From contig NZ_CP030139.2 in assembly GCF_003846445.2 (NCBI RefSeq), positions 1,963,223 to 2,027,222 of the forward strand: 64,000 nt of DNA. The letters are read 5' to 3'. Positions 47,549 through 51,249 of this stretch are shown here, one piece after another. This DNA is from Synechococcus elongatus PCC 11801 (GTDB lineage Bacteria; Cyanobacteriota; Cyanobacteriia; Synechococcales; Synechococcaceae). The position numbers and the translations under genes are program-made. The notes under the pieces were generated by a model. It had not been told where the DNA came from and searched no databases. It saw only the letters and a list, made by a program, of their open reading frames with translations. Positions within the stretch are counted from its first letter, which is position 1. Every line of letters begins with the position of its first letter.

Positions 47549-48724
47549 TTAAGGCGATCGCAGCAGTAGGCCATGTAAGCCCCCCATGGCGATCGCCAGC
47601 GGCAGAATCAGCAGCGGTACCACTTCTAAGCCAGCGCCACTAGCCACCCAGCCGATTCCAGCCGGAATCAGCGCTGACCCCACACTGGCTGCACTGGTTG
47701 CAAAACCAACCGTTGCCGGCACCATGCCTTCCGGTAGACGTTTGGGAATCAGCCAGATAATCGTGGGGAAAATCGCAGCCAGCGCAAAGCCAATCAACGG
47801 CAGACTGATCAGCGATTGAGGCTGCTGCCACCAGCCAATCAGCCCGATCATCAGCAAGCCCAGCGAGAGGGTAATGGTGCGGAGTCCGCCCAGCGATCGC
47901 AGACTGTAGCTCAGCAAGAATCGACCGGCTGTCAACCCTAACCAGTAGGCACTGAGACCATAGCCCGCCCAAAGGGGCGGCGTGGCCCGAGCAATCGTTT
48001 GGACGCTGTAGGCCCAGTGGCTCACCGAGGCTTCGATGCCGACATAGATCAGCAGAAATGCCCCAAACAAAAACACGATCGGGGTACGCAGCGATCGCCG
48101 GAGCTGCACATCAGCAGCACTAGCAAGCGGATTTGGATCCTTGAGGAGGGGTGGGTAGCGATAGAGCAAGGCTGTAAACACGCCAATCAATAGCAAGCTC
48201 GTGAGCGTGGCGAGAACGCCGTAGACTTGTCGCCACTCCAAACCCAAAGCCAAGAGTGTGGTCGCGATCGCTGGTCCCGCAAAAGCGCCAATGCCATAGA
48301 AGCCGTGCAGCGCTCCCAGCAAATGAGCCGTGCGATCGTCCTGCACCAGTGTGGTGTTGATGCCTGCATCAATTAGCCCAATGCCCATGCCCAGCAGTGG
48401 CCCCGCCAGCACCATCAGCAACCAAGTTGGAACGAGGGCATAAATCAGTAGTGCGGCAGTTAGCAGACCAGCGGCCAAGACCAACAACCGTCCTAGCCCC
48501 AGTCGTGCCATGACCAAACTGCTGGTGATCGCCGCGAGGATGTAGCCACAGATTTGACTGATAAACAGCAGCGTGATTGTGGCTGAGGTCAGCCCATACT
48601 CCGCCAGAATCGAGGGCAACAGCACACCAAGGCTGGCTTCCGCTAAACCGATGCTGATGAAGGCATAGAAGGCGACCGCCACACTGATCCAAAGTGGTGG
48701 TGATGACTGGGCAACGAGGCGCAT
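47549..48724 (-). CDS. MFS transporter
   Basis: 391 aa, twelve predicted helices. GLAEASLGVLLPSILAEYGLT in helix 1, MARLGLGRLLVLAAGLL in the loop 2-3 region, and GLIDAGINTTLVQ fit the FucP/YbjJ-like MFS subgroup. It is the last gene of a four-gene minus-strand operon (16 bp from the gene before it) that faces a MarR regulator, so efflux of a toxic compound is likely. Confidence 0.85.
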   Translation of the reverse strand: MRLVAQSSPPLWISVAVAFYAFISIGLAEASLGVLLPSILAEYGLTSATITLLFISQICGYILAAITSSLVMARLGLGRLLVLAAGLLTAALLIYALVPTWLLMVLAGPLLGMGIGLIDAGINTTLVQDDRTAHLLGALHGFYGIGAFAGPAIATTLLALGLEWRQVYGVLATLTSLLLIGVFTALLYRYPPLLKDPNPLASAADVQLRRSLRTPIVFLFGAFLLIYVGIEASVSHWAYSVQTIARATPPLWAGYGLSAYWLGLTAGRFLLSYSLRSLGGLRTITLSLGLLMIGLIGWWQQPQSLISLPLIGFALAAIFPTIIWLIPKRLPEGMVPATVGFATSAASVGSALIPAGIGWVASGAGLEVVPLLILPLAIAMGGLHGLLLRSP

Positions 48725-48739
48725 GGCTCCAACTCCGGC

Positions 48740-49195
48740 TTAGCGATCGCGGTCTAAATGGGTCAGCGTAACGGCAACCAGGAGTAGGCCGATCGCAACA
48801 ACGCGAGACGGGCTGATCGGTTGAGGTGTGAGGCCAAACCAACCCCATTGGTCAATGACGAGGGACATCAGCAACTGACTGCAGACCACCGCGAGCATCG
48901 TGGTCGTGAGCCCTAGCCTGCCAATGACCAGCGTATTTAGGGTCACGTAAACGGCTCCCAGTCCGCCTCCACAAAATGCCCAGATGGGCACCTGTCCGAG
49001 GCGATCGAGGGGTTGAGCGCCAAACACACCCAGCGCTAAGAGCAGCGCCAGGGTACTGGAACCCACGATGAAGTTGATGGCTGTTGCAGCGATGGGAGAT
49101 CGCAGCGTTTGCTTCAGTCGGGCGTTGGCTGCGGCTCCTATGGATAGCAACCCACCTCCCGATCCAGCACCCAGTAACGCAATCAAAACATCCAT
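48740..49195 (-). CDS. DMT-superfamily transporter, DUF606/YdcZ type (second copy)
   Basis: 151 aa, five transmembrane helices. LLGAGSGGGLLSIGAAANARLKQTL..P..A..INF.VG and CSQLLMSLVIDQWGWFGL are the DUF606 pattern. It starts 3 bp after the stop of a homologous gene (49199-49693), so the two probably form a heterodimeric carrier. Confidence 0.85.
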   Translation of the reverse strand: MDVLIALLGAGSGGGLLSIGAAANARLKQTLRSPIAATAINFIVGSSTLALLLALGVFGAQPLDRLGQVPIWAFCGGGLGAVYVTLNTLVIGRLGLTTTMLAVVCSQLLMSLVIDQWGWFGLTPQPISPSRVVAIGLLLVAVTLTHLDRDR

Positions 49196-49198
49196 GAC

Positions 49199-49693
49199 TT
49201 AAGCCCTCGGTTGCAGGAGAAAGAACAGAGCGATCGCGAACAGTCCCAAAGCCGCCCGCCGCAAGGGAGTTAGGCGATGCCGAGGCACATTGAGCCAGCC
49301 GTAGTGATCCGTGATGACGCTGACGATCGCCTGCCCACTGACCACTAGCCCGAGCGTCAGGGTAGTGCCCAGAACAGAGACAAAGTGCGTACTAGAAAGG
49401 ACATACCAAGGTCCCATCACGCCCCCAATCAAGCTCCAGCGCGGCGCTTGGGCGATCGCGGACCAGCGAGGGCGTTCAAACCGACCGCTCAGCAGCAGGC
49501 CGATGAGCACCACACTGCCCGTGAGGTAGGACAGTGTTGCGGCGAGGGGCACAGAGTCGAGCGATCGCGCGAGCTGAGCATTGCAACTGACCTGAATCGG
49601 CAGGATGGCTCCACTAAGCAGAGCCAGCCCCAGAAACAGACAGGCTTGGCAGCGGGCAACAACCTGCCGCCAACTGGAACGAAGCGAAATCAT
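49199..49693 (-). CDS. DMT-superfamily transporter, DUF606/YdcZ type (first copy)
   Basis: 164 aa. SGAILPIQVSCNAQLARSLDSVPLAATLSYLTGS and SGQAIVSVITDHYGWLNVP match the adjacent copy position by position, showing ancient duplication. The tandem arrangement lets the two half-sized proteins assemble with opposite topology, as in small multidrug carriers. Confidence 0.85.
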   Translation of the reverse strand: MISLRSSWRQVVARCQACLFLGLALLSGAILPIQVSCNAQLARSLDSVPLAATLSYLTGSVVLIGLLLSGRFERPRWSAIAQAPRWSLIGGVMGPWYVLSSTHFVSVLGTTLTLGLVVSGQAIVSVITDHYGWLNVPRHRLTPLRRAALGLFAIALFFLLQPRA

Positions 49694-49741: not shown

Positions 49742-50644
49742 CTAGGCTGCGATCGCCTTAGCCGCGTAAGAGCCTTGGGTCAATTCCTGAAACACCCAAG
49801 GGGCAACGGGCTGCCAATTCAGCTGTTGTTGGGCGCGAGCGCCTGAAACCCGTTGATCGAGGGCAAGCGCATCCGCTAAATCTCCCCAGATAGCCCGAGC
49901 TTCCTCCAGCGTCAGGTGCTGCAAGCGATGACCCATCCCTAGGGTCTTGGCGATCGTGAGTGCCACTTGTTGCATGGAAATGGACTCGCCACTGGCGCCA
50001 ATTAGCAGGGTTCCAGCCGGTGCCTGCTCCAGCGCCGCCACGTAGAGTGCTGCCAGATCATCGATGTGAATGAAAGACCAAGCATTGTCTCCCGCACCGA
50101 TCACAGGAACCGCCCCTTGGCGTTGGCCTGCTTGCATTAGCAGGGAGAGCAAGCCACCACCCCGCCCATAGACCAGTGCAGGCCGAATCACGATCGATCG
50201 CACCCCTCGATCAGCAGCCGACAAAACCAGCGCTTCCACGGCGGGTCGCCAAGCCACTAGCGCTGGCGGATTAAGCGGGAACGTTTCATCCGCAACCGTT
50301 GCGCCGGTGTTACCTATCACCCAAAGACCGCTGGTGTAGAGGAAGGGCTTGTGAGTGCCCGCGATCGCTGCCAGTAAGGTTTCCACAGCCTGCCGATCCA
50401 CCAGCCCCATGGCTGCATCGTTGGTGGCCGCGGTGTGAATGACCGCGTCAACTTGAGCCGCAGCTTTTTGCAAGGCGATGGTGTCCGTGAGGTCGCCGCG
50501 ATAGGACTGAATTCCCGCAGCTTCCAGTCGTTGGACAGTTGCTGCCGATCGCGCCAAGGCAGTCACCCGATGACCTTTGGCCTGAAGAGCAGCCGCGATC
50601 GCCTGCCCTAAATAACCGGTTGCACTCGTGAGGAGGACGTTCAT
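49742..50644 (-). CDS. NAD(P)-dependent SDR/epimerase-like protein
   Basis: 300 aa from the ATG at 50644. Rossmann TSATGYLGQAIA (7-18), TSGLWVIG in place of the typical Y-x-x-x-K region, and RPALVYGRGGG. Atypical SDR similar to NmrA/dihydroflavonol-type enzymes. First gene of the putative MarR-controlled operon; may modify or detoxify the compound that the transporters export. Confidence 0.82.
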   Translation of the reverse strand: MNVLLTSATGYLGQAIAAALQAKGHRVTALARSAATVQRLEAAGIQSYRGDLTDTIALQKAAAQVDAVIHTAATNDAAMGLVDRQAVETLLAAIAGTHKPFLYTSGLWVIGNTGATVADETFPLNPPALVAWRPAVEALVLSAADRGVRSIVIRPALVYGRGGGLLSLLMQAGQRQGAVPVIGAGDNAWSFIHIDDLAALYVAALEQAPAGTLLIGASGESISMQQVALTIAKTLGMGHRLQHLTLEEARAIWGDLADALALDQRVSGARAQQQLNWQPVAPWVFQELTQGSYAAKAIAA

Positions 50645-50679
50645 CAACGATCCTTCGGGCTGTCACTCGCCCAGAAACT

Positions 50680-50695
50680 ATCTTGACATCAAGAT
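50680..50695. promoter_or_regulatory. Palindromic operator 1 (putative MarR site)
   Basis: Perfect 16-bp palindrome ATCTTGA-CA-TCAAGAT in the 104-bp gap between the SDR and marR starts, 36 bp upstream of the SDR ATG. Confidence 0.75.
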
Positions 50696-50721
50696 AATCA
50701 AGATAAAGATGACTGTCAAGA

Positions 50722-50737
50722 ATCTCGACGTCAAGAT
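50722..50737. promoter_or_regulatory. Palindromic operator 2 (putative MarR site)
   Basis: ATCTCGA-CG-TCAAGAT, one mismatch to the same palindrome, 42 bp centre-to-centre from operator 1 (about four helical turns) and 11 bp before the marR ATG. Binding here would block translation-start access or the marR promoter. Confidence 0.72.
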
Positions 50738-50748
50738 ATAGTGAAGCC

Positions 50749-51249
50749 ATGGCTTCAGACAAAATCGATCGCATTCTTGAGCAGTGGCAGCAGGAACTGC
50801 CCCAGGTCAACGTTGCTCCGTTGGCTGTGACGGGTCGGTTGTTGCGCATTGCTCGATTGCTCGAAAAGCAGCGTGAGACCTTGCTGGCCAAGTACGGTCT
50901 CAGCGTTTGGTCCTTTGATGTGCTGGCGACGCTGCGCCGTCAGGGGCCGCCCTATCAGCTCAAACCGACGGATCTCTACAGTCTGTTGATGCTCTCCTCG
51001 GGAGCGATGACCAACCGCATCGATCGCCTAGAGCAGGATGGAATCGTGGTGCGATCGCGAGATGGCAGCGATCGCCGCAGCGTGATTGTGCAACTGACGC
51101 CGAAAGGCATTGCGCTAGCAGATGAAGTGATGCCTGTTCTTTTTGCTCAAGAAGGGGCACTGCTCTCCGAATTTGCCACTCCAGAGGAGTTGGAGAGGTT
51201 GGTGCCACTGCTGAGACGATTACTGCTGTCTTTGGAAGAGATAGCTTAG
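50749..51249 (+). CDS. MarR family transcriptional regulator
   Basis: 166 aa. Winged helix with SVWSFDVLATLRRQG, LYSLLMLSSGAMTNRIDRLEQDGIVVRSRDGSDRRSVIVQLTPKG covering recognition helix and wing. Divergent from the SDR-transporter operon with two palindromes between, so likely autorepressor and operon repressor released by a small ligand. Confidence 0.92.
   Translation: MASDKIDRILEQWQQELPQVNVAPLAVTGRLLRIARLLEKQRETLLAKYGLSVWSFDVLATLRRQGPPYQLKPTDLYSLLMLSSGAMTNRIDRLEQDGIVVRSRDGSDRRSVIVQLTPKGIALADEVMPVLFAQEGALLSEFATPEELERLVPLLRRLLLSLEEIA

Follow-up and report, generated by a model that had tools for sequence, protein, structure and literature searches.

A conserved pair of predicted palindromic operators between a UrtR/PecS-type marR gene and its divergent operon in Synechococcus elongatus PCC 11801

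The window analysed here, a stretch of 64,000 nucleotides from the genome of Synechococcus elongatus PCC 11801, contains a gene predicted to encode a regulator of the MarR family (marR). Divergently oriented to it, nearly contiguous genes were detected which putatively encode an SDR-type oxidoreductase, two YdcZ-type membrane proteins and an MFS transporter. Two palindromic operators, two weaker sites and the predicted promoter elements of both transcription units are located as follows:

47549..48724, minus strand: MFS transporter, following a 15-nt gap
48740..49195, minus strand: YdcZ-type DMT membrane protein 2
49199..49693, minus strand: YdcZ-type DMT membrane protein 1
49742..50644, minus strand: NAD(P)-dependent epimerase/SDR-type oxidoreductase, first divergent gene
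50679..50696: operator 1 (O1), TATCTTGA-CA-TCAAGATA, palindromic over 18 bp, both 8-bp arms being perfect
50691..50719, minus strand: predicted sigma-70-type promoter of the divergent operon, TTGACA (50719-50714), 17 nt, TATCTT (50696-50691)
50694..50711: O1', a degenerate operator that overlaps O1 and lies 15 bp further inward, ATAATCAA-GA-TAAAGATG
50706..50723: O2', a possible second weak site located 15 bp from O2 on its inward side, AAGATGAC-TG-TCAAGAAT
50721..50738: operator 2 (O2), AATCTCGA-CG-TCAAGATA
50737..50742, plus strand: predicted -10 element of marR, TATAGT, separated from the ATG by six bases
50749..51249, plus strand: UrtR/PecS-type MarR regulator, 166 aa

The divergent operon probably ends with the MFS transporter gene, whose membership is suggested by the spacing of the genes.

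An earlier, sequence-only reading had described two matching 16-bp palindromes spaced 42 bp from centre to centre in the intergenic region. Both palindromes were recovered, ATCTTGACATCAAGAT at 50680-50695 without mismatch to ATCTTGA-N2-TCAAGAT and ATCTCGACGTCAAGAT at 50722-50737 with one mismatch, but their description as matching 16-bp palindromes had to be slightly amended, since the first site extends to 18 bp and the left arm of the second carries one mismatch (ATCTCGA). The spacing itself proved exact, with the centres at 50687.5 and 50729.5 lying 42.0 bp apart, which corresponds to four turns at 10.5 bp. According to the base composition of the given sequence, chance would yield about 0.0001 perfect sites and 0.005 sites with at most one mismatch per 64 kb. 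With expected counts as low as these, chance falls far short of explaining two sites less than 60 bp apart between divergent genes.

In the whole 2.8-Mb genome a scan for the 18-mer TATCTTGA-N2-TCAAGATA in which two mismatches were allowed detected O1 and O2 only and no further sites for a wider regulon, and with up to three mismatches the number of matches was at background level (11 compared to 12 for the reversed control). Frequent occurrence of the palindrome elsewhere in the genome, which the earlier reading had named as a potential refutation, was not observed: apart from O1 and O2 there are two perfect 12-bp cores (TCTTGA-N2-TCAAGA), both within reading frames. A wider regulon was therefore rejected for lack of sequence support in the genome, and a single target locus is visible.

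The repeat search additionally revealed a perfect palindrome with 8-bp arms, TGAAGCCA/TGGCTTCA, at 50742-50757 which spans the start codon of marR and is not conserved in other genera.

The conservation of the operator pair was analysed in 80 homologous loci from one-per-species genomes. The 40 cyanobacterial loci among them, together with the present genome and its congener, made up a cyanobacterial set of 42 loci. Within this set O1 and O2 are 42 bp apart in 40 loci, 43 bp apart in one and 58 bp apart in one. In the cyanobacterial orthologues O1 is kept at -70 to -53 and O2 at -28 to -11 relative to the ATG, within a conserved block that extends from -74 to -7 from the marR ATG, and conservation is near zero upstream. 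When 386 cyanobacterial genomes were searched for pairs of near-perfect sites separated by 12-40 bp, three matches were obtained, all with the 42-bp spacing, and none for the control. The autoregulatory divergent MarR layout proposed by the sequence-only reading is thus strongly supported by the presence of the same two sites at the same distance in front of orthologous marR genes in 40 of the 42 cyanobacterial loci. A second cyanobacterial group (L136-L138) has its main sites 41-44 bp apart, its site 2 being located around -57 relative to the ATG instead of -28.

Several loci deviate from this arrangement. In L022, whose divergent partner is an MFS gene, the sites lie about 100 bases ahead of marR at a distance of 58 bp, which corresponds to 5.5 turns and opposite faces; this locus is a natural spacing mutant. 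The orthologue L130 (75% identical) retains a weak site 2, and there is no recognisable site 1 upstream of its marR gene. The clostridial loci L055-L057, L059, L060, L065 and L067 possess two variant operators TATCTTAA-N2-TTAAGATA spaced 53 bp, or five turns, apart. Searching the classes of L059 and L074 provided few extra loci. Across the lineages spacings of 22, 27, 31, 33, 34, 35, 37, 42, 43, 48, 53, 55, 57, 58 and 65 bp were observed. The first impression of a universal helical phasing at three, four and five whole turns was dropped because these spacings show no significant phasing (Rayleigh R 0.36, p about 0.13). No account of the present operator in cyanobacteria was found in the papers searched.

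The -35 regions of the two predicted promoters overlap in a back-to-back arrangement, and the promoter on the divergent strand is the better match; the -35 match of marR is weak (CTGTCA, 18-bp spacer). The -10 element of the divergent operon is the right half of O1, which overlaps this element and the predicted start of the operon, while O2 spans the spacer of the marR promoter and reaches two bases into its -10 element. In 30 of the 42 cyanobacterial loci the divergent -35 element in reverse (GTCAA) adjoins O2. The motif TAnnnT was found six bases ahead of the marR ATG in all 42 loci, with the ATG shifted to an in-frame upstream start in two loci whose match set in at residue 3 or 4. Since the -10 element lies so close to the ATG, transcription presumably starts at or next to the ATG, and the marR mRNA is probably leaderless.

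The footprint between the main sites reads cTtaA-NN-tAAAGATA and represents a degenerate copy (O1') whose centre is displaced inward from site 1 by 15 bp. Its mean score in 40 loci was 16.35 compared to 5.92 in column permutations of the inter-site sequence, none of the 400 permutations scoring as high, and it is not accounted for by the -10 or -35 boxes. In the present genome only the right half of O1' is good (score 14.5 of 25.4). For O2' (offset 27) the score was 14.06 compared to 7.15, with one of 400 permutations as high; this signal is partly due to the -35 box inside O2'. The second cyanobacterial group L136-L138 also has a weak site 15 bp inward. O1' fits the pair described for PecS of A. 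fabrum, which has "two overlapping sites" in the pecM promoter.

The regulator matches PF01047 (E 1.3e-12), and its nearest solved relatives are 8ylh (E 2.6e-33, residues 4-162) and 8ylf (7.8e-31), followed by HucR. PMC12893000 refers to the entries 8YLI and 8YLJ, which share a sequence group with 8ylh, as PecS of Pectobacterium atrosepticum, and 8ylf appears to be an MftR-type chain. PecS, MftR and HucR are described as members of the UrtR family (PMC12893000). Among 37 homologues of the regulator W13, R90 and R102 are invariant and D57 is nearly so. The last three residues align with R106, R118 and D73, respectively, of HucR (structure 5dd8), which we take to be its urate-pocket residues; the position of HucR H142 is occupied by E126. 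W13 was aligned with the tryptophan of the N-terminal extra helix of PecS, and such a helix with a conserved tryptophan is a feature of UrtR proteins (PMC6391409). The UrtR motif of the allosteric alpha3-alpha4 loop has the core T/S-S-G-T (PMC12893000). In the regulator this loop reads S83-S84-G85-A86, the last residue being Ala instead of Thr, and A86 is invariant in the 37 sequences. Divergent genes with 16-18-bp palindromic operators between them, a UrtR trait, are present at the locus. Based on the PecS- and MftR-type nearest solved relatives and on the conserved W13, D57, R90 and R102, the protein sequence identifies the regulator as UrtR-like and not as a generic MarR protein. This grouping with PecS and MftR, together with the identical core in the footprinted PecS operator of V. 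vulnificus, lends additional support to the autoregulatory layout.

The xanthine dehydrogenase-type molybdopterin domain PF02738 was not detected in the genome by a search that was positive in five of 14 control genomes, and urate is therefore not obviously made inside the cell. Homologues of the regulator with E <1e-30 occur in 12 of the 386 cyanobacterial genomes, which characterises the system as patchy. L014 (genome contig C1:925495-925719, minus strand) is a shortened second copy of the regulator gene covering approximately residues 89-163 with 72% identity. It adjoins a ketol-acid reductoisomerase-like reading frame, was not found in the congener G001 and looks like a decayed duplicate.

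The gene adjacent to marR on the divergent side varies among the relatives. In cyanobacteria it encodes a YdcZ protein in 18 of 37 cases, an SDR in eight (window included), a glyoxalase-type protein in four and an MFS transporter in two. EamA as divergent partner is confined to the non-cyanobacterial set, where EamA/PecM-like genes are the commonest partners (15 of 26 in other phyla); at the present locus SDR, YdcZ and MFS genes take the place of an EamA-type PecM. Export may be the common theme of the divergent partners, and their varying content (SDR, YdcZ, glyoxalase, MFS) indicates that the substrate is not fixed.

We propose that a dimer on O1 would cover the -10 element and the start of the oxidoreductase-YdcZ-YdcZ-MFS operon and that a dimer on O2 would cover the spacer and the edge of the marR -10 element, so that both promoters would be shut by occlusion. 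The weak overlapping sites 15 bp inward may fill when the repressor is more abundant. Binding of a small ligand, which may resemble urate or xanthine, in the UrtR pocket would reduce the affinity for DNA, and the release by the ligand would induce the efflux and oxidoreductase operon. Judged from the sequence evidence, it is very probable that the regulator acts as a UrtR/PecS-type autorepressor occluding both divergent promoters until released by a small ligand. Against this reading stand the missing PF02738 domain, the weak -35 match of marR, E126 at the position of HucR H142 and the varying content of the divergent genes. The operator pair is real and well conserved, but it basically belongs to a familiar PecS/UrtR-type self-regulating switch.

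A 64-kb sequence is expected to contain about four palindromes whose 7-bp arms may have any sequence, and O1 and O2 might be regarded as chance or non-functional. However, the same sequence occurs twice, is unique in the genome and lies in a divergent intergenic region, its spacing is the same in 40 of 42 relatives and there is hardly any conservation just upstream; chance palindromes are already refuted by this conservation and their probability is negligible. It also seems very unlikely that the regulator is an MhqR-like quinone sensor, that is, a quinone-responsive repressor of oxidoreductases and not a member of UrtR. The operator of S. aureus MhqR, TATCTCGAA-ATCGAAATA, is indeed similar to O1 and O2 (PMC12893000), MhqR also has a serine-rich alpha3-alpha4 loop (PMC12893000), and the first divergent gene encodes an oxidoreductase. 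Nevertheless, PecS and MftR-type proteins are the closest solved chains, with an alignment that covers the N-terminal helix including W13, and the pocket residues of MhqR are not conserved in UrtR (PMC12893000).

For the UrtR/PecS-type autorepressor itself, independent occlusion and cooperative pairing are weighted equally, each having slightly less than an even chance, and neither competes with the autorepressor reading, of which both are variants. The two operators may act without contact, the 42 bp being set solely by the geometry of the -10 and -35 elements of the overlapping back-to-back promoters. This would agree with the right half of O1 serving as divergent -10, with O2 abutting the marR -10 and with the -35 box GTCAA/TTGAC between them, as well as with the PecS sites of Vibrio, which are 57 bp apart and predicted to lie on opposite faces (PMC6391409), and with the spacings in other phyla, which are not in phase overall. 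However, the Cyanobium-type loci L042, L044, L049-L051 and L053 lack GTCAA at the -35 position yet have spacings of 42 or 43 bp, and L136-L138 keep 41-44 bp despite the shifted position of site 2. Both observations speak against operators without contact. In a same-face cooperative pair, as predicted by the sequence-only reading, the dimers would touch or bridge over four turns and form a sharp joint switch, possibly in a variant in which O1 and O2 nucleate an array of three to four dimers over the inward weak sites, with centres 15, 12 and 15 bp apart. The exact 42 bp in 40 of the 42 loci, the conserved offset-15 site, which is present also in L136-L138, and the behaviour of V. vulnificus PecS, which has a Hill coefficient of 2.7 and in excess occupies the whole intergenic region (PMC6391409), are in favour of such a pair, whereas the 58-bp spacing of L022, the loss of a recognisable site 1 in L130 and the erosion of the inward site in the present genome argue against it. 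A more specific scenario, a fixed cyanobacterial multi-dimer switch (15-12-15) that would close both promoters as a unit and control a leaderless regulator mRNA, its target being an exporter of the YdcZ type and its ligand a cyanobacterial metabolite other than urate, seems rather unlikely.

With this analysis a generic "MarR" gene of a cyanobacterium and its relatives is given a subfamily, an operator, predicted promoters and a target operon. An efflux operon induced by a ligand and a leaderless regulator transcript are testable predictions. The near-invariant 42 bp, compared with the other spacings in the family, provide a natural system for the question of same-face phasing in PecS-type repressors. 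Details of note are the fixed 42-bp spacing, the weak sites 15 bp inward, the predicted leaderless regulator mRNA and the YdcZ partners.

Among the known systems, MhqR of Bacillus and Staphylococcus (pocket F11, F39, E43, H111; quinone response) was compared by operator similarity only: its half-sites are similar, its ligand pocket is different and it is not among the closest sequences. HucR of Deinococcus radiodurans shares the pocket positions D73, R106 and R118 with the regulator, except for H142, and controls uricase from a single site (PMC5487221), whereas two sites are present here. MftR of Burkholderia thailandensis (mftR/mftP-fenI) belongs to the UrtR subfamily, is encoded divergently from an efflux operon and represses both transcription units (PMC6963729). 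Mutation of mftR changes about 400 genes in that species, whereas the site search revealed one target locus here. The PecS systems of Vibrio vulnificus, Agrobacterium fabrum and Pectobacterium resemble the present one in sequence family and in the N-terminal helix with its tryptophan, and the core of their operator, TATCTT..A-N2-T..AAGATA, equals that of O1 and O2. PecS of V. vulnificus was footprinted on TATCTTTATATTAAGATA-type sites, one by each start of the divergent pecS-pecM genes (PMC6391409), and the divergent membrane transporter with one site by each gene start is likewise found here, although the EamA-type PecM is replaced by SDR-YdcZ-YdcZ-MFS. Binding of V. vulnificus PecS is cooperative, with the two sites on predicted opposite faces (PMC6391409), in contrast to the same-face spacing of 42 bp at the present locus, and unlike in the PecS systems the regulator mRNA is predicted to be leaderless.
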